Shown piece after piece: positions 11,792 to 64,000 of a stretch of DNA of 64,000 bases. The position numbers and the translations under genes were made by a program. Below the pieces are notes generated by a model that searched no databases, was not told the origin of the DNA, and was given only the letters and a program-made list of their open reading frames with translations. Within the stretch, counting starts at the first letter, position 1, and each line of letters opens with the position of its first letter. Origin of the DNA: Idiomarina loihiensis (GTDB taxonomy: Bacteria; Pseudomonadota; Gammaproteobacteria; Enterobacterales; Alteromonadaceae); assembly GCF_024584785.1 (NCBI RefSeq), contig NZ_CP074112.1, positions 2,294,001 to 2,358,000 on the forward strand, written 5' to 3'.

Positions 11792-12841
11792 ATGCACGGA
11801 GAATTTAAAGTTCCTGGCGGTAAGCTAGTAGTGGCAGATATTGAAACTAATCAAGAGGTTATTACCTCAGCTAGTATTTCTGGCGATTTCTTTTTGGAGC
11901 CTGATACGGCACTAGAGCATATTAACCAAGCGTTGGTGGGCCTATCCATTGATGCTAGCCATGCCATTATTAGTAAGGCCATTACCGCTGCCCTAGCGGA
12001 CGATGTGGTGATGTTTGGCTTCTCTGCTGAGGCAGTAGCTACGGCGGTACGTCGCGCTTTAGGCAAAGCCAGCAGCTGGTTTGACCATGACTTTGCTGTG
12101 ATTCCACCTGTCACCTTACCAGCGATACAACATGCGGCGCTAGATGAAGTGCTTGCGACCTCTGTTGCACAAGGTACGCGCGGACCAACCCTCAGGTTTT
12201 GGGATTGGGATGATTCAGTTGTGGTTATTGGCTGTTTTCAATCGGTTAGAAATGAAGTAGACATGGACGCAGCCAAGGCTGCTAATATCAATGTTGTTAG
12301 GCGCATTACTGGTGGCGGCGCCATGTTTATGGAGCCAGGTAACTGTATTACTTATTCGTTAACCGTGCCTAGTTCTTTGGTAGATGGCATGAGTATTGAA
12401 AGATCCTATCAATTTCTTGATACTTGGGTGTTAGCTGCACTAGCTGAAGTGGGAATTAAGGCGCACTACGTGCCATTAAACGATATAGCCTCAACCCAAG
12501 GTAAAATTGGGGGTGCTGCACAAAAACGTTTTTCTAATGGGGTGATTGTGCATCACGCCACTCTCGCCTATGACATTGACGCCGATAAGATGCTCAAAGT
12601 ACTCCGTACTGGGCGCGAAAAGCTCTCTGACAAGGGCACCAAAAGTGCTAACAAGCGGGTCGACCCCATGCGCAGTCAAACCGGTTTACCGCGAGCCCAG
12701 ATTATCGACGCCTTTATGGAGCAGTTTACCCAGCTTTATCAAACCCATACTGACAATTACAGCGCGGCAGAGTTAGCGACATCAGCACAGCTTGTTGCTA
12801 ATAAATTTCGCTCTGACCAATGGCTCTATAAGGTGATTTAG
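11792..12841 (+). CDS. Lipoate-protein ligase with N-terminal accessory (LplB-like) domain
   Basis: 349 residues from the ATG at 11792 (GAGGTGG upstream). Residues 1 to about 90 begin MHGEFKVPGGKLVVADIE, the pattern of the LplB/accessory domain that assists lipoyl-adenylate formation. The catalytic domain follows, with RRITGGGAMFMEPGN near 168 (lipoate/ATP loop), SLTVP and the lysine motif GKIGGAAQKR. It would attach lipoate to the E2 and GcvH lipoyl domains. In E. coli LplA the accessory domain is C-terminal, so the order here is reversed. Its stop overlaps the convergent dabA stop by 4 bp. Confidence 0.88.
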   Translation: MHGEFKVPGGKLVVADIETNQEVITSASISGDFFLEPDTALEHINQALVGLSIDASHAIISKAITAALADDVVMFGFSAEAVATAVRRALGKASSWFDHDFAVIPPVTLPAIQHAALDEVLATSVAQGTRGPTLRFWDWDDSVVVIGCFQSVRNEVDMDAAKAANINVVRRITGGGAMFMEPGNCITYSLTVPSSLVDGMSIERSYQFLDTWVLAALAEVGIKAHYVPLNDIASTQGKIGGAAQKRFSNGVIVHHATLAYDIDADKMLKVLRTGREKLSDKGTKSANKRVDPMRSQTGLPRAQIIDAFMEQFTQLYQTHTDNYSAAELATSAQLVANKFRSDQWLYKVI

Positions 12842-15159
12842 GTTTTAGGTACCGCTACCCACCCGGTAGCGGTGCGTTGTTGCAACGTTGCTGTTGATGG
12901 TTGCCACTGCCATAGCCACAGCCATTCGTTGTCAACCAGTTGTTTGACGACCGGTTGCGCAGCTATCACCTGATCAATTGCGACCGTATCTGCTGCAATC
13001 ACAACGGTAAGTCGCAACGGCTCATGGTACCAATCTTGTCCGTCATGTACAGATTGGCGTGCTAAGCCAATACGCAGATCTCCCCCATTCCCCTCAAAGA
13101 CACCCAACCCATCAGCTACAACATTGTGCAGTAGCTTATTACCACTGCCAAACTGCTGCGGTGCCACCGTTGACGCGTAATATTGCATATTGATCCAATG
13201 AGCCACCACCATAGGTGCCGTTAACAACTGGGTTAATAGGCTTTGGTCTTGATCGTGCTCGGCGACATACTCGTGTAAAAAAACACGACCATCAAAGTTC
13301 AAGCTGCGAGTAACACTGCGCGGTGCAAAAATAATGGCCGCATTACGCGCGAGGCCCCATTCTGGACGAACTTCTGCCCAGCTTCCTGCCCGTTGTTGTA
13401 ACAATTGCTGGGAGGAGATTGTGGCAGCCTGCTGCCCCAATAATCGCTGGGCTTGTTCTTGTTGCGCTTGGGTATTTGCAGCTGCTATCCAGGTAGCCAC
13501 ATCTTGAGGGACATCTGCACTTAAAAGCTGTAGCTGCTGTAATGTGGTGTTATGAAGCGCTGCAATAAAGCGTGTCTGAGAGGGAATGCTGATCTGATGG
13601 TGTTCATTTAATAGCTGCCGTACTGAAGGCTCATTAAGGATTTGCGCCAGCACTTGCGCATTAACTGCGCCAGACTGACCGCCACAAGCGCCGCACTCCA
13701 AACTAGCAGCATGTGGATTATTATGAGTTGATGCTGTGTGGCCTATCAGCAACACTGACTCGGCAAAAGCTTCGGTGAGGCTCATACCCGTTAGCACTTG
13801 CGCAGCAACTTGAGCTAACTCACGGTTACTGACCGGTTGTTGATGACGAGTGATCAGCCACGGCCCAGTATTCACCAAACTTGCCGCGATACGCTGTTGG
13901 GGCTGGTAGGTTAAGGTTTTCTTAAGTAATTTAGCAATCTTTGCTAAGCCACTCATTTCAACCCAACCATAAGCCCCTGCAGGGCTCTCGTGAGCACGGT
14001 GCCAACTGGCGGAACGCCAGATTTTACTCACCTGCTCACTCGTTTCATGATGACCGGATAACTGCACCTGCCACTGAGGTGCCAGTAAAGCCGGCAGTTG
14101 GGGCTTGCTCAATTCTGCGCTTACTTGATATTCAACCGGTAACCCAAAAAAGCCGGCAAAACCTATGGTCTGAATCCCCTCATGCTGCGCCTCTAGCGCT
14201 CTGCGCATAGGTTCAGAGCGAACGTCTATACAGCATACAGCTTGCAGCTTTGGCGGTTTACCCAGCTTGTTCTCGGATTGCTTTGTCGATGACGTCATCA
14301 ATTGGGTAGTTAACTGCTGCTGATAGTGCTGCTCGCGTTTTGATTGCTGTTGCCACAGCGGTTGTAACTGTATAGCGACCTGTTGCTTACGCTCTAAATA
14401 ATGACTCCAGGTTAGCTTGAATTGTTGCTGTAGTGCCTCATCGGAGCTTTGCCAGCAAACGAGGTCCCAGCCCAAGCGAATCGCTAGTAGCTGATTAAGC
14501 TCGTCATTAAAATCCGGCTGCTGGGTTAACTCTCGTTGCCAACGCCTTTGAGCAAAAATACTCGCCCAACCATACAGATCATGCAGCAGTACCTGCAGAT
14601 AGATTGGCCATTGTGCTGCTGTTAGTGGAAGCTGATGTAAGGCTATTTGGTAAAGTTCGAAAATATCCTCTGGCAAGTTCTCTAGGTGCTGCTGTATGTT
14701 TTTATGATTCAACAACAATGCGATGCCGCGGTCTTGCCGCACCACCTTCAGCCATTGTTTAAACATACGTTGATTGATGTCATGGTGCTGTCCCACTTGC
14801 GCAGGATAATTGACCCATAACGCACAGAATTGGCTCATTTGTTGCTGAATTTCAGTTAACCACGGCAAGGTACGGAGCTTACGTTGAGCCTGTGTCGCAT
14901 CGTAAGATGCCGCCACGCTGCCATGAAACCGCCCTTCAGCCAACAACCCTTCAGCTCCTTTTACAAGCGGTATGTTAAACCATGCTAGTTGCTCTGCCGC
15001 AACTTCGTGAATTGATTCGGTACGCTGTTGCCACCAAGGATTAACAGCAATACTACGGTCTAGCGGCCATGTCGGAGCAACCGTAGCTGTTGCTTGTTGT
15101 ATCCAATTTGCCAAGCGGATCACGTCTTGTTCCTGTTCAGAAAGGGTGTTTGTTAACAT
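12838..15159 (-). CDS. dabA: DabA, inorganic carbon transporter subunit (DUF2309/UPF0753)
   Basis: About 773 residues, the zinc-binding, carbonic-anhydrase-like subunit of the DabAB CO2/bicarbonate accumulation complex on the cytoplasmic membrane. Expected beta-carbonic-anhydrase-like residues are present: VCCIDVRSEP near 308-315 (Cys, Asp), LIGHTAS near 473 (His) and ECGACGG near 488 (Cys). The start is the ATG at 15159, one base after the dabB stop (TAGTATG); an upstream start at 15195 overlapping dabB is less likely. A small hairpin, ACCGCTACC/GGTAGCGGT (12851-12873), lies inside its 3' end. Confidence 0.95.
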   Translation of the reverse strand: MLTNTLSEQEQDVIRLANWIQQATATVAPTWPLDRSIAVNPWWQQRTESIHEVAAEQLAWFNIPLVKGAEGLLAEGRFHGSVAASYDATQAQRKLRTLPWLTEIQQQMSQFCALWVNYPAQVGQHHDINQRMFKQWLKVVRQDRGIALLLNHKNIQQHLENLPEDIFELYQIALHQLPLTAAQWPIYLQVLLHDLYGWASIFAQRRWQRELTQQPDFNDELNQLLAIRLGWDLVCWQSSDEALQQQFKLTWSHYLERKQQVAIQLQPLWQQQSKREQHYQQQLTTQLMTSSTKQSENKLGKPPKLQAVCCIDVRSEPMRRALEAQHEGIQTIGFAGFFGLPVEYQVSAELSKPQLPALLAPQWQVQLSGHHETSEQVSKIWRSASWHRAHESPAGAYGWVEMSGLAKIAKLLKKTLTYQPQQRIAASLVNTGPWLITRHQQPVSNRELAQVAAQVLTGMSLTEAFAESVLLIGHTASTHNNPHAASLECGACGGQSGAVNAQVLAQILNEPSVRQLLNEHHQISIPSQTRFIAALHNTTLQQLQLLSADVPQDVATWIAAANTQAQQEQAQRLLGQQAATISSQQLLQQRAGSWAEVRPEWGLARNAAIIFAPRSVTRSLNFDGRVFLHEYVAEHDQDQSLLTQLLTAPMVVAHWINMQYYASTVAPQQFGSGNKLLHNVVADGLGVFEGNGGDLRIGLARQSVHDGQDWYHEPLRLTVVIAADTVAIDQVIAAQPVVKQLVDNEWLWLWQWQPSTATLQQRTATGWVAVPKT

Positions 15160-15160
15160 A

Positions 15161-16585
15161 CTAACGGGGAGCTCCGGTGGTTGCAGAAGATGCACGTAAA
15201 GGCCAAAGCGTTAGGGTGAGGCGAGTAGCCCATTCGTCGAGGTACAAGCCTGCATTTAACATGATAAAAAGTTTACTGCTATGAGCTGCTTGGGGTCGGT
15301 ATAACAACCATAGGTAAACTCCCGTAATAGCGATTAAGACACTAGATACCCACAAATCAAGCCCAACGATAAGCGGAGCCTCAACAAACTCTAGATGCAG
15401 CTTTAATAACCACAGTGCCGCGCCATAGCAACTCAGCCAAATCATGGCGATAGCCATTGCTGGAATAAAGTCAGCCCACGCAAAGCGTTCAAAATAGCTC
15501 GCTAGCCATAAGCTCAGCGCTAAACTCACCGCCAACCAAGGCGCGACATACGTAAGCAAATCCAACTCAATAACTGTGATCAGTACTAAGCTGCAAACAC
15601 TAACTAAGGTAACAAGAACCGCGCTAAACGGCGGTAACGCTAGCCCTACAAAGCGCTGCCGCTCGCGCAACTCCACTGCACTACCTGAACTTAAAAAGGC
15701 ATAGGCCTTATAGCAAGAATGTGCCAGTAAATGCAGGGCGGCCAAGGTGTAGTAACCTAAACTTATTTCAACCAACATCAGCGCCATTTGCGCCACAGTA
15801 GACCAAGCCAAGCGAACTTTGATGCTAATCCGGGTCATGGTGACTACCGCTGCGACTAACATGCTCAATCCAGCAACTAGGGCCAATAGCCAGCGCGCTA
15901 GAGGAGCATCGCTAAGTACTGGCGCAAATTGTAGCAACAAAAATCCGCCTAGATTAATAATGCCGGCATGCAGTATGGCTGAGACTGCGGTTGGTGCTTC
16001 AACCACCTGTAATAGCCAACCATGTACAGGAAGTTGCGCGCATTTAAGTAAGGCAACCAGTACCAGCAGTACCGCAGCTACCTGTTGATTCACCAAGGAT
16101 CCGTGCTCGGTTAATTGACTGATATGGGTGGTACCCGTGTGATACCACAGCCAAATGAGCGCAGCCCCCAGCAATAACTCTGCGATACGCGCAAAGATAA
16201 ATTTTTTATGGGCTGCTAGTTGTGCTCGAGGTCGCTGAGGATAAAATAATAGGAGCTGGTGCAAACTTAAGCTCACGGTCACCCAAGCCAACCAAAATAG
16301 CAGATAATGATCCGCTAACGCCGTGGTCAGAATGGATACCAACACCAACACCAACCAGCGATGAAACCGGTGTTCTTCTTGCTCACCACGCACTTGAACC
16401 GCGGCGAAACGCAACACAACCCAACCGATAAAGCAGATCATTGCGGCAAATCCAGTGCTCAGGGTTGTTAACGCAAAACCAAAGGCTTTAACCTCTGTCC
16501 AACCCGTGTTACCTATGAGCAAACTGGTGATCAGAAAGCAACCACATAGCAGAGCAATCGTAGCGGTACTAATGCGCCAGCGCAT
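15161..16585 (-). CDS. dabB: DabB, proton-conducting subunit (NuoL/ND5-like) of the inorganic carbon pump
   Basis: 474 residues, almost entirely hydrophobic with about a dozen membrane segments. It resembles the antiporter-like NADH dehydrogenase subunit L: LLKCAQLPVHGWLLQVVEAPTAVS carries the conserved Lys-Pro-Glu region (shown here only as key residues K, H and E near 185-205), and HLLAHSCYKAYAFLSSG is the later Lys helix. GGAGG precedes the ATG. With DabA it should energise CO2 uptake by cation flow. No nuo genes are nearby, which together with dabA excludes complex I. Confidence 0.93.
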   Translation of the reverse strand: MRWRISTATIALLCGCFLITSLLIGNTGWTEVKAFGFALTTLSTGFAAMICFIGWVVLRFAAVQVRGEQEEHRFHRWLVLVLVSILTTALADHYLLFWLAWVTVSLSLHQLLLFYPQRPRAQLAAHKKFIFARIAELLLGAALIWLWYHTGTTHISQLTEHGSLVNQQVAAVLLVLVALLKCAQLPVHGWLLQVVEAPTAVSAILHAGIINLGGFLLLQFAPVLSDAPLARWLLALVAGLSMLVAAVVTMTRISIKVRLAWSTVAQMALMLVEISLGYYTLAALHLLAHSCYKAYAFLSSGSAVELRERQRFVGLALPPFSAVLVTLVSVCSLVLITVIELDLLTYVAPWLAVSLALSLWLASYFERFAWADFIPAMAIAMIWLSCYGAALWLLKLHLEFVEAPLIVGLDLWVSSVLIAITGVYLWLLYRPQAAHSSKLFIMLNAGLYLDEWATRLTLTLWPLRASSATTGAPR

Positions 16586-16752: not shown

Positions 16753-17643
16753 ATGGCACGACTTAACTACCATCACCTTTACTATTTTTGGCGGGTAGCT
16801 AAGCAGGGCAACCTCACCGCAACCGCTTCACAACTGGCACTATCTCAATCGGCTTTATCTGCTCAAATTAGCCAGTTAGAACATACCATTGGCCAACCTC
16901 TGTTCAATCGTGTCGGTCGTTCTCTGGTGCTTACCGAATTAGGCCGTACGGTGCTGAATTATGCTGAGGATATTTATCAGCGCGGCGAAGAGTTGCAACA
17001 ATTACTCAGCCAAGGAACACCTACCGTGCCTAGTTTAAAGATTGGGGTGCTATCCAGTATGTCACGCAACTTTGTCGATGCTTTTATCAAGCCTTTAACC
17101 CAAGGCTTAGATGTTCACTTTCAGCTCATTGCGCGACCGCAGTCCGAGCTAGAACAGTTATTGGCACACCATCAACTTGACGTGATTCTTACTAACCGAG
17201 AGCTTGCTAGTGGTGATGATGTGGGGTGGCAATCTCAGCTGTTAGCGCGCCAAGCCTTGAGTGTTATTGCCCCTAGTCGCCTTGCCCATTTGCCAGCGGA
17301 AGTAGACGCTAGTTATCAACAACAGCGATGGGTGGTACCAGGTGCAGCATCGCCCCTGCGTGCTGCATTTGAGTTTTTCTGCACCCAGCATCAATTGCGC
17401 CCCGAAATTATCGCAGAAGCTGACGACATGGCCATGTTGCGGTTGCTCGCTCGCGACAGTGGCGCCCTCGCTGTCATGCCTGCAGTAGTTGTGCGCGATG
17501 AGTTGCAAAGCGGACTCTTAGTCAAACGCTTTGACCTGCCCAATGCTTTTGAAAACTTTTATGCGGTGACGCTAACTCGTAAATACCAACACCCGAGGCT
17601 AGCCGAACTGCTGCAAGCATCGTACTTTGGCACATTGCGCTGA
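16753..17643 (+). CDS. LysR-family regulator (NhaR-like), probable dabBA regulator
   Basis: 296 residues. The N-terminal winged HTH begins LNYHHLYYFWRVAKQGNLTA, close to the NhaR-type start, with the recognition helix SALSAQISQLE and RVGRSLVLTELG. A LysR effector domain follows. AGGA lies 9 nt before the ATG. It is divergent from dabB and shares a 167-bp control region. NhaR itself senses Na+; with dabAB the likely signal is inorganic carbon or ion status, which is inference. Confidence 0.9.
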   Translation: MARLNYHHLYYFWRVAKQGNLTATASQLALSQSALSAQISQLEHTIGQPLFNRVGRSLVLTELGRTVLNYAEDIYQRGEELQQLLSQGTPTVPSLKIGVLSSMSRNFVDAFIKPLTQGLDVHFQLIARPQSELEQLLAHHQLDVILTNRELASGDDVGWQSQLLARQALSVIAPSRLAHLPAEVDASYQQQRWVVPGAASPLRAAFEFFCTQHQLRPEIIAEADDMAMLRLLARDSGALAVMPAVVVRDELQSGLLVKRFDLPNAFENFYAVTLTRKYQHPRLAELLQASYFGTLR

Positions 17644-17785: not shown

Positions 17786-18775
17786 TTAATTCTCAGCAGA
17801 AACTTCAACGCGGTTACGGCCCTTATGCTTCGCCTCATAAAGAGCTCGATCAGCACGTTGCAAGACCGCTACTAAATCATCCTCTACAAGCATACTGGTC
17901 ACCCCAATACTCATGGTGACCTGACCATGAGCCCAACCAGTCTGTTCAACCAGTTCGCGAATGCGCTGTGCGGCTTGTTCAGCTTCAGCCAAACTTGCCC
18001 CGCTTACAATCAATGCAAACTCTTCACCACCAATGCGGGCAACCGTATCGATAGCACGCGTCTGCTCGGCTAAGACTTGTCCCATCCGCCGTAACACAAC
18101 ATCGCCCTCAGCATGCCCAAAATTATCGTTTATCGATTTAAAATGATCGATATCCATCACCAGCAACGCAGCACTGGCATAGCCACGTTTTACCTTTTCC
18201 AACTCAAGCTCTAATTGCTGCTCAAAGGTGCGTCGATTTGCCAGTTGGGTTAATGAGTCTGTGGTTGCTAAACGTTCTAACTGTTTATTTAGTTCAGTTA
18301 ATTGCTGATGTTTGTGTTCTAGTTCAGCCCGCGCACGCTCTAATTCTGCCACCACCAGTTGCTTCTCTCGTAGCGCACGCTCAGCTTCCTTTTTTGCTGC
18401 TACTAGCTGGTCTTCAAAGATAAAGCGCCGGTGAATCGGCAGTAACACCATAACAAAGCCATTGTTCGCTGCGGGTAATTTGACGGCGTTCACTAATACT
18501 GGCAATTCATTATTTTGTTTATCTTTTAAACGAAGGTACATCTCTTCAACGGTACCTTGATGCTGCATCAGCTGAAAAACATGCGTCAAAAAAAACAGTT
18601 TCCCAGCACCCGAGAACAGCTTATCAATCGACTGCCCCATTAGCTCATTTACTTGGTAGGCAAGTAACTCTAATAAAGGCTGGTTGATATCTACTATTTG
18701 GCGCTCGGCGTTGATTGCCAATAATCCTACTGGCACCTGTTGTGGATTAAAAAAATCAGACACAGTACTTGTCAT
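17786..18775 (-). CDS. PAS-GGDEF diguanylate cyclase coupled to an RsbQ-like hydrolase
   Basis: 329 residues. An N-terminal PAS domain (about 10-125; GLLAINAERQIVDINQPLLE, later GTVEEMYLRLKDK) resembles the PAS of RsbP-type proteins. A coiled coil follows (about 130-175; REKQLVVAELERARAELEHK), then a GGDEF domain with RIGGEEF and an upstream inhibitory RAID (I-site). It should make cyclic-di-GMP and be product-inhibited. The preferred start at 18775 overlaps the hydrolase stop as ATGA; an in-frame ATG at 18787 is the alternative. No membrane segment is present, so it is cytosolic. Confidence 0.92.
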   Translation of the reverse strand: MTSTVSDFFNPQQVPVGLLAINAERQIVDINQPLLELLAYQVNELMGQSIDKLFSGAGKLFFLTHVFQLMQHQGTVEEMYLRLKDKQNNELPVLVNAVKLPAANNGFVMVLLPIHRRFIFEDQLVAAKKEAERALREKQLVVAELERARAELEHKHQQLTELNKQLERLATTDSLTQLANRRTFEQQLELELEKVKRGYASAALLVMDIDHFKSINDNFGHAEGDVVLRRMGQVLAEQTRAIDTVARIGGEEFALIVSGASLAEAEQAAQRIRELVEQTGWAHGQVTMSIGVTSMLVEDDLVAVLQRADRALYEAKHKGRNRVEVSAEN

Positions 18776-19596
18776 CTCAAGAGGCACTCAATGATCTTAT
18801 CGCGCACTAATTGCGGTGAACTAACATGGGGATAGTGGCCACTGCAGCCGATTTTTGCAGTATCGCAATGGGGAATTCTAGCTGCCATATAATCAATCAC
18901 AGCAGTAGGTACAATCACATCAACGTCGCAATATAAGATACTCACGGGCACGGTAATTTGTGGTAGTAGTGAACGGTTGTCACTCAAAAAAACCAATTCA
19001 GCAAAGCGTCTTGAGATTGCTGGATCGGCGTTAGCAAAACTCTGTCGCAATTGCTCACTCAATTCTGGTCGGTGACTATTTTTCATCACAATCGGCGCCA
19101 AATAGCCAGCCCATTCAAAATGATTACGCTCCATTAAACTCAATAGCTCGTTAATCTCATCTAACTTGAAGCCGCCCTGATAATTATCAGTATCCAAATA
19201 GCGCGGAGAAGGCCCAATCGCAATAATCTGGCGAAATAAGTCAGGTCGCTTGATGGATGCGAGCATGCCTATCATGCCACCAACGGAATGCCCGACATAA
19301 TGAATAGGGCCGCACTCAAGCGCTTCAATGACTGCAATAAGATCGTTGACATAGCCGGTGAAACTTGAATAGGTTTCAGCATCATAATAACTAAAGTCAG
19401 AACGACCGCAGCCGCAAAAATCAAAGGTAACGGGGGCTATTGATGAAGGTAATTCGGCCAACAGCGGGGTCCAAATAAGCTGATCGCAACCAAAGCCATG
19501 CCCGAAGAGCACCCTGGTGGGTACCGAGTCATTAGGGTTTACCTGCTGGACATGTTGGGTAACGCAGTAACGTGACAGTATCTGATTAGCGGGCAT
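18772..19596 (-). CDS. RsbQ-like alpha/beta hydrolase (KAI2/D14 family)
   Basis: 274 residues from the ATG at 19596. Starting here puts ILSR five residues in, exactly as in Bacillus RsbQ; the longer start at 19632 has no ribosome site. RsbQ landmarks are FGHGFGCDQLIW, the nucleophile GHSVGGMIGMLAS, GPSPRYLDT, the Asp in CDVDVIVP and His in SGHYPHV. RsbQ activates the PAS-containing phosphatase RsbP in the Bacillus energy-stress pathway, probably by supplying a small ligand. Here the overlapping partner is a PAS-GGDEF protein, so the output would be cyclic-di-GMP (inference). Confidence 0.92.
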   Translation of the reverse strand: MPANQILSRYCVTQHVQQVNPNDSVPTRVLFGHGFGCDQLIWTPLLAELPSSIAPVTFDFCGCGRSDFSYYDAETYSSFTGYVNDLIAVIEALECGPIHYVGHSVGGMIGMLASIKRPDLFRQIIAIGPSPRYLDTDNYQGGFKLDEINELLSLMERNHFEWAGYLAPIVMKNSHRPELSEQLRQSFANADPAISRRFAELVFLSDNRSLLPQITVPVSILYCDVDVIVPTAVIDYMAARIPHCDTAKIGCSGHYPHVSSPQLVRDKIIECLLR

Positions 19597-19697
19597 TGGC
19601 AATCTCTTGTCGATAACTTTATGTTTAAACATAGAGTTTTATGAGCGAGATTGCCAGTTTAACCTGTACTAGCTGAGTAGCAAGCACTCAACCCTGA

Positions 19698-33616: not shown

Positions 33617-34921
33617 TTAGTCTAATAGGTCGCAGACCATTTGGTCGCGACCTTGCCGTTTAGCACGGTACATCAGTTGATCAACTGCCTGCAAGATTTC
33701 GTCTCTAGTGACATCTTTCGCGGCAATCTGCACCACTCCAAAACTGGCGGTAACTGCGACAGGTTCAATTTGTTGCGGCGGACACAACTGCAGACGATGC
33801 ACACAGTCCTGTAGCTGCTTAGCTACTGTAGTAGCTGCTGCTAAATCGGTTTCTGGAAGCAGGATAGCGAACTCTTCACCACCCAAGCGTGCCAGCGTAT
33901 CTACATCACGCAAACGCTGCTGCATAGCCGCCGCACACCCCACAAGGACATCATCACCGAAGCTATGCCCATAGGTATCGTTAAGTTGCTTGAAATAATC
34001 TAAATCATACATAACAACACTAAAGACACGGCCGTGACGCTGGTAGCGGGTTAACTCTTGCTGTAGCGTCTCCATAAAGTAACGATGATTGTAGACTCCT
34101 GTTAACGCATCTGTGCGCGCAAGCTGGAGCAATTCTTGTTGCATTTCTTTGGCTTCGGTAATGTCTCTAACAGTACCTATTATTTGCTCAGAGCCATCAG
34201 GTTGTCGTTTTATTTCACCACGTTCATGTACCCAAATAATGCGTCCATTGGGGCAACAAACCCGATGCTCAACATCATACTCACCCGTTTCTTCTGCATG
34301 TTTTAGGGCTTGTTGCTCAAGATCACGATCAGCCTCGTGGATCATCGCCATGAAGCTTGAAATAGTAGGTTGGAAACTCTGTTGGTCGAGACCGAACATC
34401 TCATAAATATTGGCGGACCATTCCAAGCGATTCTGTTGTGGATAAGATACCCAATGACCGATCCGTGCAATCCGCTGCGCCTCGCTCAATAAACGTCGGC
34501 TCTGCGCTGCCTCTTGCGCTTGCAATTGCTGCTGATGAACATTGGTGATAGCACCAGCTAAGGCGACGACCAAACCTGCGCGCTCAATTTTCTTAGTGCT
34601 ATCTTCCACCCACACATACTCATCGGCATGGCTGCGCAGCCGATAACGACGCGTCAATTGATGCTGATTGGTGTCCGCAGCAAAGTCTTTAAATAGGGCG
34701 TAGTTGAATTGACGGTCTTCTGGATGCTGCATGGTCATCCAATCAGCCATACTATTTATCCCAGAAAACTCGATATGTAAGGCTTCTGCGACATTTGGTG
34801 ACAGATATTGCAACGCGAATGGCGGCTCAGCATCAAGCCGATAAATAACAGCAGGGCTAGACGCTAACGTTTCATTTAATAACGCAGTAAGCTCTGGATT
34901 AAATAAAAAGCGACTGGGCAT
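33617..34921 (-). CDS. Diguanylate cyclase with two PAS domains
   Basis: 434 residues from the ATG at 34921 (AAGG upstream). Tandem PAS domains (about 15-135 and 150-265), each followed by a PAC-type segment (YRLRSHADEYVWVEDS; HRVCCPNGRIIWVHERGEIK), then a GGDEF domain with ARLGGEEFAILLPE and the I-site RDVD five residues before it. Catalytically competent by sequence. No membrane segments. The signals sensed by the PAS domains are unknown. Confidence 0.93.
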   Translation of the reverse strand: MPSRFLFNPELTALLNETLASSPAVIYRLDAEPPFALQYLSPNVAEALHIEFSGINSMADWMTMQHPEDRQFNYALFKDFAADTNQHQLTRRYRLRSHADEYVWVEDSTKKIERAGLVVALAGAITNVHQQQLQAQEAAQSRRLLSEAQRIARIGHWVSYPQQNRLEWSANIYEMFGLDQQSFQPTISSFMAMIHEADRDLEQQALKHAEETGEYDVEHRVCCPNGRIIWVHERGEIKRQPDGSEQIIGTVRDITEAKEMQQELLQLARTDALTGVYNHRYFMETLQQELTRYQRHGRVFSVVMYDLDYFKQLNDTYGHSFGDDVLVGCAAAMQQRLRDVDTLARLGGEEFAILLPETDLAAATTVAKQLQDCVHRLQLCPPQQIEPVAVTASFGVVQIAAKDVTRDEILQAVDQLMYRAKRQGRDQMVCDLLD

Positions 34922-55725: not shown

Positions 55726-57774
55726 ATGGTTCGGTACATTCATGCGGCTACTTTGAGCATGCTTTTATTGGTGGCATTGACCTTTGCCAATATGAGTTAT
55801 GCAGACATGCTTCCGCCGACGGATGCTGCAATAGAAGAAGAGCTCGAAGGTCTCTTAAATGAGTCTGATTATGAGGCCTCGCTGGTTCGTTTACTTGAGC
55901 TGCATGAGAGCACCAGCGAGCAAACGCCGGTCATGACTCGCATTCGACTGCTTGGTTACATCGCCTCTAATCATCATTACAATAAACGGCCCGAGCAGGC
56001 GCAAGACTATTTACAACAAATGAAAGCACTTGCGCAGCGCAGCGGCCTACCCGATGCCTTAGCTGAAACTGGTGGCACCGAAATCTATATTTTACTGTTA
56101 GATAATAAAGTTTCTGAGGCGTTAGCGATTCTTAATGACGCGTTAGTGCCAGTTGAACAAGCAACCATGCCTCGAGTTAAGTATTTTGTGCATAATCTTG
56201 CTGCTTATGTGTATTCAGCTCGTAGCCAATTCGCAGCAGCGCTCGAGCATCTTATCTATGCCCTAGATGCCATTAGCGGCACCAATACTGAGCGCACTAT
56301 ATTGCGCCAAGCTAGTCTCAAGTTGCGCATCGCCAACATTTATAATCAGCAGAAGAGCTATGACCTTGCGCTAGAGCAATTGGATGACCTTGAGGTTCGT
56401 ACGGCAGAGCTTCCTAATGCAAAAGCCTATTTGGTAGAAGTCACCTTCCAGCGTGGCGTCATCGAAACAGCCCGCGAAAATTATGATGCAGCCTTAGCTC
56501 ATTACGCCCAAGTAAAAAAACTTATAGCTGACGACACCGATTATCAGAGCACTTATTTAACGGTGCTTAATAATATTGGTGATATCGATATGAAGGTGCG
56601 TGACTTTGCCGGAGCGCGCCAAGCTTTCGACGAAGCCTATGCTATCGCTAACTTAAATAACGATGAGTTTAACGAAACCATCATTCGTTTTAACTTAGGT
56701 TTTATTGAAGTTTACGAAGGCGACTATGCTAACGGTCTGAGTAAGATGCTTGAGATTGTCCAACTAGCACGAGCTGAATGGGCGCCCGTAGACACTGAAG
56801 TCTTACTTGGTGAGTATGCTGAAGCCCTTGGAATTGCCGGCAACTATCAAGAAAAGGCTGCTATCCTGCTCGAGCAACGAGAGCTACGCGACCAAATTTA
56901 TAAAGCGGAGCAACAGAAAAGCGTTGCCGAGTTACAGAATTTGTACGATAGCAAAGATAAAGCTCAGCAAATTTTGCTACTAGAGCAAAAAAACGAGTTG
57001 AACCAGCAGCTCATTCAGAACCAAGAGCAAAAACGTACGATTCTTCTACTTCTCGTAGTGGTGGCACTGTTTGGCGCAGTCTTAGTCTTTATGTTGTACC
57101 GCTCAGCGCGTCGCTCTAACCAAGAACTTAAAGTGGCGAACGTAAAACTAGCTGAACAATCTATTCGTGATCCTCTTACCGGGCTGTTAAACCGCCGAGC
57201 CTTACAAAATAAGTTAAACGACCAGCATGATGCGCACGGTGATGCGATGATTTTGCTCGATATCGATCACTTTAAACGCATCAACGACAATCTTGGCCAT
57301 GCCGTGGGTGACGATGTGTTACTTGAGGTTTCAAAGCGCTTATTAGAGGTTTCGCGAGATTCCGATCTGGTGGTACGTTGGGGTGGTGAAGAGTTCTTAA
57401 TTTATCTTAGCAGCACCGAGCAGAAGCGCTTACCAGCCCTCACCGCAAGATTACTGGCAGCCATTAGCGAAAAGCCGATCCAGTCTGGTGATAAAGAGCT
57501 GCATGTTACCGCGACAGCTGGCTTTATCTGTTATCCATTTGCGGATTTAAACGAGAAACAAATGGACTGGGAAGACACCTTACAACTTGCCGATATGGTG
57601 CTCTACGCCGGTAAAGTGCACGGCCGGAATCAAGCTTGGGGTGTGATGGCGTTAAATGTACCTTTTGCTGAGGCACAGCCGCTCTTAGAAACCGACCTGC
57701 CAGCGGCAATCGACCAAGGCATGTTGAGTGTTGAAGTGGTACATGGCCCTAAAGTTCCTAGCTATAAAGCCTAG
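55726..57774 (+). CDS. TPR-GGDEF membrane diguanylate cyclase
   Basis: 682 residues. Signal peptide (TLSMLLLVALTFANMSYA), a periplasmic TPR-type helical region (about 40-400; for example AAYVYSARSQFAAALEHLIYA), a coiled coil, a single membrane helix (LLLLVVVALFGAVLVFMLY near 430-450) and a cytosolic GGDEF with VRWGGEEFLIYL and the I-site RDSD. A sensor that transmits a periplasmic protein or peptide signal to cyclic-di-GMP synthesis. GGGAG lies 6 nt before the ATG. Confidence 0.92.
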   Translation: MVRYIHAATLSMLLLVALTFANMSYADMLPPTDAAIEEELEGLLNESDYEASLVRLLELHESTSEQTPVMTRIRLLGYIASNHHYNKRPEQAQDYLQQMKALAQRSGLPDALAETGGTEIYILLLDNKVSEALAILNDALVPVEQATMPRVKYFVHNLAAYVYSARSQFAAALEHLIYALDAISGTNTERTILRQASLKLRIANIYNQQKSYDLALEQLDDLEVRTAELPNAKAYLVEVTFQRGVIETARENYDAALAHYAQVKKLIADDTDYQSTYLTVLNNIGDIDMKVRDFAGARQAFDEAYAIANLNNDEFNETIIRFNLGFIEVYEGDYANGLSKMLEIVQLARAEWAPVDTEVLLGEYAEALGIAGNYQEKAAILLEQRELRDQIYKAEQQKSVAELQNLYDSKDKAQQILLLEQKNELNQQLIQNQEQKRTILLLLVVVALFGAVLVFMLYRSARRSNQELKVANVKLAEQSIRDPLTGLLNRRALQNKLNDQHDAHGDAMILLDIDHFKRINDNLGHAVGDDVLLEVSKRLLEVSRDSDLVVRWGGEEFLIYLSSTEQKRLPALTARLLAAISEKPIQSGDKELHVTATAGFICYPFADLNEKQMDWEDTLQLADMVLYAGKVHGRNQAWGVMALNVPFAEAQPLLETDLPAAIDQGMLSVEVVHGPKVPSYKA

Positions 57775-63572: not shown

Positions 63573-64000
63573 TTATTGCGCAATTCTAAGCCGATCTCGA
63601 CCTTGGCTCTTCGCTGTATCCATAGCATCGTCGGCCTTTTCTAACAGTTGCTCCCAGCTTTCGCCGGGACGCCATTGAGTGACCCCAGCGCTGGCCGTTA
63701 CCCGTGCCATCATGCTTTTGATAGCAAAAGGTTCATGGCGTAAATTATCCAGTACACAGCCACTGTACTGCGCGGCCTCCCGTAAACTGGCATTAGGAAA
63801 AATCACAATAAACTCTGCGCCATTGCCGCGAATAAAAATATCATCTGGACGACAGCAGGCGCGAATACGGCGAGCCGTATCTTGCAATACCGCATCGCCA
63901 AACATATAGCCGAATTTATCGTTGACCGCTTTAAAGGCATCTAAGTCTATTAACATCAAACACAAAGAGTGCTGACGCTGCTCAGCTTGTTGTAGGTGGT
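63573..64000 (-). CDS. Degenerate GGDEF-domain protein (partial, N-terminus beyond right edge)
   Basis: The visible 142 codons form a GGDEF domain ([23 protein letters not shown] near its start), but the active-site loop reads RGNGAEF instead of RxGGDEF. The first signature Gly and the catalytic acid pair are thus altered. The C-terminal [15 protein letters not shown] is intact. The frame is open to the window end. Probably not a cyclase; such domains often act as GTP- or protein-binding modules. It is upstream of purE (59 nt gap) on the same strand. Confidence 0.85.

Follow-up and report, generated by a model that had tools for sequence, protein, structure and literature searches.

The closest described systems to the locus analysed here are the RsbQ/RsbP-PAS modules. 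Nadezhdin, Brody and Price (2011; PMC3183031, cited throughout from extracts) reported 45 adjacent RsbQ/RsbP-PAS pairs with a phosphatase, a histidine kinase or a diguanylate cyclase as output, Psychromonas ingrahamii A1SVT3 being an example with diguanylate cyclase output. According to these extracts, the PAS domain of RsbP binds RsbQ, the F55A substitution abolishes this binding, and C56 lies on the pocket side of the PAS domain in the published model. The same authors put forward two models of sensing, and the physiological cue of the RsbQ-PAS modules was not known to them in 2011. A more recent article (eLife 2025; PMC12143880, likewise cited from extracts) restates the coupling of the RsbQ/RsbP module to kinases and GGDEF proteins, and presents an AF2 model of 2RsbP/2RsbQ in which RsbQ contacts both the PAS domain and the linker through an interface like that of RsbT. 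A further article that we considered, on a Pantoea cyclase (PMC8294551), is in the extracts available unrelated to the hydrolase/PAS-GGDEF module.

We analysed a window, that is, the whole stretch of 64,000 nucleotides of Idiomarina loihiensis DNA, in which an RsbQ-type hydrolase gene is followed by a gene for a PAS-GGDEF protein. This pairing of hydrolase, PAS domain and diguanylate cyclase is a class known since 2011 and not a new kind of system, and the pair in the window is a new example of it. An initial annotation of the locus had proposed a cyclic-di-GMP (c-di-GMP) version of the RsbQ-RsbP stress module. The c-di-GMP version is well supported by the sequence; as a novelty it falls, having been described in 2011 in the extracts of PMC3183031, and the supply or sensing of a ligand by the hydrolase, both raised in that annotation, match the two models of the same paper. 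Like the cyclase-output modules of PMC3183031, the window pair has an upstream RsbQ homologue, an N-terminal RsbP-type PAS domain, a helical linker and a single GGDEF domain in the same gene order. It differs from them in its host, which is new, and in a PAS domain in which Val replaces Cys10 and Gln replaces Pro62.

The RsbT-RsbU pair and the RsbU-domain GGDEF proteins (PMC12143880, extracts) resemble the locus in having a partner protein at an N-terminal dimer domain, a coiled-coil linker and exchangeable outputs, whereas the partner and the sensor domains are different ones. Compared with RsbQ-RsbP of Bacillus subtilis, the locus is alike in its hydrolase (39% identity in the fold alignment, with the same triad) and in the likeness of its PAS domain. 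The outputs differ: a GGDEF domain in the window, a PPM phosphatase acting on RsbV in RsbP of the sigma-B branch. The designation "stress module" was without support in the sole test that bears on it, a search of the host genome for SpoIIE-type phosphatase domains, which returned one domain at 507113 of the contig, remote from the pair at about 2312000.

The hydrolase furthermore shares its fold and triad with the plant butenolide receptors KAI2, D14 and DAD2. These receptors signal via F-box and SMXL proteins, whereas the hydrolase of the window would have a PAS-GGDEF protein as its signalling partner. Butenolide perception by RsbQ itself was reportedly described by Melville and others in 2024.

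The gene pair in the window

The hydrolase gene lies at 18772-19632 on the minus strand and encodes 286 aa from an ATG start; the pair was present as first annotated, apart from the extent of the hydrolase gene, which had been given up to 19596 and reaches 19632. The catalytic residues are Ser116 (19285-19287), Asp238 (18919-18921) and His266 (18835-18837), all on the minus strand. The gene for the PAS-helix-GGDEF protein (17786-18775, minus; 329 aa from ATG) has a start codon that overlaps the hydrolase stop codon, in an ATGA (18772-18775, minus) that is likely to couple the translation of the two genes. The list of open reading frames starts this protein at a GTG at 18787; the ATG start gives the ATGA overlap instead.

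Within the PAS-GGDEF protein, the RsbP-type PAS domain (residues 13-114; 18434-18739, minus; PAS_9 E 7.8e-10) is followed by the helical linker (residues 118-172; 18260-18424, minus) and the GGDEF domain (residues 170-322; 17810-18268, minus; Pfam E 7.4e-45, TIGR00254 E 4.9e-50). An RxxD inhibitory site (I-site; RAID, 18047-18058, minus) stands 5 residues ahead of an intact GGEEF active-site motif (residues 249-253; 18017-18031, minus), and with both the GG[DE]EF motif and the catalytic domain intact, the protein is predicted to be a diguanylate cyclase. On reading the sequence, we found the ATGA overlap, the hydrolase motifs FGHGFGCDQ, GHSVGGMIG and GPSPRYL, the segment GTVEEMYLRLKDK of the PAS-GGDEF protein, the GGEEF motif and the I-site, all as initially annotated. 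The host genome, a single contig of 2.9 Mb, contains 38 GGDEF matches, 37 of them over the cut-off. Three of these, besides that of the pair, fall within the window, at 33641-34120, 57163-57633 and 63591-64000, the last of which extends beyond the window end.

The RsbQ-type identity of the hydrolase holds, RsbQ of Bacillus subtilis (1wom) being the closest solved structure by sequence (E 1.2e-61), with plant KAI2/D14-type receptors and the Oleispira hydrolase 3qvm next; among the matches listed, the KAI2/D14/DAD2 receptors range from E 6.7e-53 to 8.3e-40. An AlphaFold2 model built from 7 sequences (mean pLDDT 77.9) gave 3qvm as the first and RsbQ as the second fold match of the hydrolase, and the identity to nine aligned relatives is 32-66%. 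The protein therefore has what defines the RsbQ/KAI2/D14 family, namely the Ser-Asp-His triad, the alpha/beta hydrolase fold and closest structures within the family. RsbQ-type hydrolases of less than 60% identity are also present in 69 plasmid records, 24 predicted to be conjugative and 15 mobilizable.

For the PAS domain we compared individual residues with those of RsbP. Window F54, L19, K59, F62 and V16 presumably occupy the places of RsbP L48, L13, Q53, C56 and C10, and F61, H65, E78 and P92 what we take to be the places of F55, Y59, E72 and P86, letters that we compared with the residues given in PMC3183031. We judged eight of the nine RsbP class positions (C10, L13, L48, Q53, F55, C56, Y59, E72 and P86, with classes as given in the legend text) to fit, in line with the RsbP-like PAS initially annotated; the misfit is Cys10, which is Val here. 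A total of 31 positions are identical to the RsbP PAS sequence used here, and the residues reported in the extracts of PMC3183031 as required in RsbP for RsbQ binding or signalling are the same or similar in type in the window protein. The place of RsbP P62 is taken by Gln68 (18572-18574, minus), in the F-alpha helix region.

Other hallmarks of the module are likewise present: the RsbQ homologue is immediately upstream, the PAS domain occupies residues 13-114 of 329, the output is a GGDEF domain, and a DIT motif at the PAS end was not found on reading the window protein. The linker, which in such modules is helical, potentially coiled-coil and at least 21 residues long, is modelled as one continuous helix (119-171). 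The cyclase model has a mean pLDDT of 83.5 and a pTM of 0.51. In Foldseek it matches PAS- and LOV-GGDEF structures best, although superposition over the whole length is poor.

Conservation of the pair and its outputs

The initial annotation called for a gene-neighbourhood survey and named lack of conservation of the pair as what would count against it; we ran this survey on 59 genomes and 129 hydrolases, and found the pair strongly conserved. Among the 59 related genomes, host included, the hydrolase search (E 1e-30) hit 10 and the PAS search (E 1e-5) hit 9, all within those 10, leaving 49 with neither (Fisher p 8e-10, n=59, kinship ignored). The tenth genome, G027, does contain a PAS-GGDEF protein when its loci are read, one too distant for the PAS search. 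Of the 25 other genomes of the same genus, both searches hit 6, and neither hit the other 19.

Hydrolases were collected from a protein scan of genome contigs (7 loci), from the 59 relatives (10 genomes) and by a profile at E 1e-40, applied at the level of the class (369 genomes, 3 with a match), the family (395 genomes, 99) and the phylum (398 genomes, 20). These sets overlap and are dominated by the family, and at most 7 candidates per genome were scored at first look. The family search gave 106 places, of which G729:C95, equal in score to another contig of its genome, was left out. Removal of identical cores resulted in 129 distinct hydrolases, including L012 (split by a frameshift) and L158 (cut by a contig end). 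The frameshift split (L012 5004-5809 and L017 1295-2100) is in a metagenome-assembled genome, beside an intact PAS-GGDEF gene, and may be a sequence error.

An RsbP-type PAS domain lies directly downstream of 121 of the 129 hydrolases, in the same frame in one case and one gene further, about 1.35-1.39 kb downstream, in three. For the remaining four (L024, L076, L083 and L157) no PAS domain was found within the stretch read, 1.5 kb for the first three; a profile based on 10 partners, as used here, could overlook divergent PAS domains. By way of a small control we inspected the host's four other hydrolase paralogues, and none showed an RsbP-type PAS domain within the fetched stretch. The gap could be measured for 118 adjacent pairs: counted from the first possible start, 83 overlap, with a 4-nt overlap in 32, and the gap does not exceed 30 nt in 117.

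The triad is equally well kept, with the catalytic Ser and Asp in 129/129 and the His in 127/129 of the distinct hydrolases. In the two exceptions, L018 (1447-2250) and L059, the His is replaced by Gln or Asn; both retain Ser and Asp and have a PAS-GGDEF partner, and turnover may thus be dispensable in some members.

The partners differ in output. By our own profile, 78 are GGDEF proteins (74 adjacent, 3 with an EAL domain and 1 fused), and 39 are kinases by motif (36 adjacent and 3 distal, of which L153 alone was scanned with Pfam); the partners at L075 and L081, two beyond these 39, are HWE/HisKA_2 kinases by Pfam. Six partners have no output domain: four with two PAS domains (L124 and L132 by Pfam, L147 by reading only, and L136) and two consisting of PAS alone. 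At L136, a HATPase domain follows downstream in a separate frame. The two lone RsbP-type PAS proteins, at L155 (1788-2141) and L156 (3140-3490), are 116-117 aa long and sit behind the hydrolase.

Among the 78 cyclase partners, Glu is found at the RsbP E72 place in all and Pro at the P62 place in 77, the window protein having Gln, and the C56 place is highly variable (F, Y, I, L, C, V). The string D[IVL]T occurs in 3/125 partners, and an RxxD I-site at the same spacing in 71/75 partners with a single GGDEF domain.

In genome G027 the whole module is a single frame of 582 aa (L109 2586-4334, minus) containing hydrolase, PAS and GGDEF, while the other copy in that genome consists of two genes. 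The fusion was read at the DNA level and is stop-free between its parts; a GTG and a TTG at the junction leave room for a second start. Pfam finds its hydrolase and GGDEF domains and not the PAS domain, which was detected by our own profile. The fusion was seen in 1/13 genomes of the G027 genus, and in the extracts of PMC3183031 the word "fused" never denotes a hydrolase and a PAS domain in one chain.

At L153 (1-4307, minus; genus g304), an ATG22/MFS-type transporter gene separates the hydrolase from a PAS-histidine kinase, and next comes a response regulator that carries an HD domain. In this genus, the same transporter was recognised by reading at L158 and at L157, the latter being one of the hydrolases for which no PAS domain was found, and at L154 a frame of the same length occupies the transporter place.

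The chromosomal surroundings were examined as a clue to function and rejected as such: the neighbour in the window is a Pyr_redox_2 oxidoreductase gene (NADH-dehydrogenase-like by reading) that precedes the module, whereas in six loci of the same genus (L006, L007, L008, L009, L012 and L018, by eye) the module lies ahead of an ompR-like gene. A greB-like gene is found on the other side in four of these six, and other genes in L009 and L012. Promoter-like sites are at shuffle level (6 versus a shuffle mean of 6.0), and terminator-like sites number 6 versus a shuffle mean of 3.9 (sd 1.8). Elsewhere in the window, DabA and a Proton_antipo_M protein are encoded at 12838-16585 (minus) and probably form a DabAB pair for the uptake of inorganic carbon; next to them, a gene for a LysR-type regulator (16753-17643, plus) is divergently oriented.

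Co-divergence and linker phase

In the 75 partners with a single GGDEF domain, hydrolase distances correlate with PAS distances (r 0.82) and with GGDEF distances (r 0.67), and PAS with GGDEF distances (r 0.82). The partial correlation is 0.63 between hydrolase and PAS given GGDEF, and 0.01 between hydrolase and GGDEF given PAS (n=75, kinship ignored). Part of the hydrolase-PAS correlation could come from gene order, because the PAS domain lies between the hydrolase and the GGDEF domain. When residues of the hydrolase and the PAS domain were compared for covariation, the F-alpha stretch, which makes up 14 of 110 columns, accounted for 12 of the 40 top pairs. We do not use this as contact evidence, because the top pair reflects a single old clade split, that is, one independent contrast.

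A quick hydrolase tree of 125 rows, with 51/122 inner branches weakly supported, requires 6 changes of the cyclase label when it is set against every other output, of which well supported branches force 4; the number is 3 when cyclases and kinases only are counted. The PAS-to-GGDEF linkers come in five lengths that are equal modulo 7 in 75/75 single GGDEF partners, window and fused protein included, with the three GGDEF-EAL proteins left out of the count. On the tree, linker length changed at least 4 times (74 partners, without L074, which has an extra stretch ahead of its GGDEF domain). The GGDEF linkers of other cyclases are known to obey heptad rules, and the whole-heptad differences therefore agree with a known principle. 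The 39 kinase partners showed no common phase, their residues modulo 7 being mixed; in many of them a further domain is present or the anchor column is empty.

How the hydrolase may control the cyclase

As judged from sequence, the evidence supports a hydrolase that would act by contact with the PAS domain of a dimeric cyclase. We consider it probable that the pair is a bipartite cytoplasmic sensor with c-di-GMP output, of the RsbQ/RsbP-PAS class, in which the hydrolase touches the PAS domain and switches the cyclase via the coiled coil. We favour this reading because of the gene overlap, the co-occurrence, the retained triad, a divergence that tracks the PAS domain, the constant heptad phase of the linkers and the likeness of the PAS residues. 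It gains further support from RsbQ being the best relative by sequence and the second by fold, and from the published RsbQ-PAS binding and AF2 model. Against it stand the His substitutions, the 4/129 hydrolases without a PAS domain, the mixed phase of the kinases, Gln68 and the Val in place of Cys10.

Under this hypothesis, the hydrolase would be a receptor-enzyme of the KAI2/D14/RsbQ kind, in contact with the PAS domain at its F-alpha helix and with the first part of the linker, probably in a 2:2 complex. A small ligand, perhaps ester- or lactone-like, would enter the hydrolase pocket and be hydrolysed, and the resulting change of contact may change the coiled-coil linker in its register or its stiffness. 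The two GGDEF domains would then meet and make c-di-GMP, which may limit the output by binding at the I-site.

The complete triad in 127/129 hydrolases would also be expected if the hydrolase were a plain enzyme handing a product or cofactor to the pocket of the PAS domain, the PAS domain being the true sensor, as in Model 1 of PMC3183031, where the extracts present it as a live model. We regard this as rather unlikely: the catalytic His is substituted in L018 and L059, the place of the pocket-side C56 varies widely in the cyclase partners with E72 fixed, and C56A and Q53A are mild in RsbP according to the same extracts. The triad also bears on a model in which the hydrolase is a constitutive activating subunit, as RsbT is for RsbU, and its amount rather than a ligand sets cyclase activity. 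Such a role would agree with the RsbT-like PAS/linker interface of RsbQ (PMC12143880, extracts) and with a gene overlap that would fix the hydrolase:cyclase ratio; it leaves the conservation of the triad in nearly all members unexplained, and we hold it to be improbable. That the two genes are neighbours by chance or through shared regulation, with a cyclase that senses alone, is hardly credible in view of the 121/129 adjacent pairs and the fused one, the co-presence across 59 genomes and the four host paralogues that have no RsbP-type PAS domain in the fetched stretch.

Taken together, our results add supporting detail on a known class, along with a fusion that may serve as an experimental handle. 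If the hydrolase does switch the cyclase by contact, the constant heptad phase would imply one shared change of coiled-coil register as the switch in the cyclase members. The single-gene fusion and the plain c-di-GMP pairs would offer a clean system for finding the cue, with one readout and no sigma-B cascade. More tentatively, a bacterial cousin of KAI2/D14 might serve as a ligand-gated c-di-GMP switch in marine Alteromonadales, with a receptor-PAS block that has moved onto cyclases, cyclase-phosphodiesterases, kinases and lone PAS domains, once as a hydrolase-PAS-GGDEF fusion, and that in one genus travels with a transporter that may carry the ligand. Because the strigolactone and karrikin receptors have the same fold as the hydrolase, a ligand from bacteria would bear on the origin of the plant receptor family.
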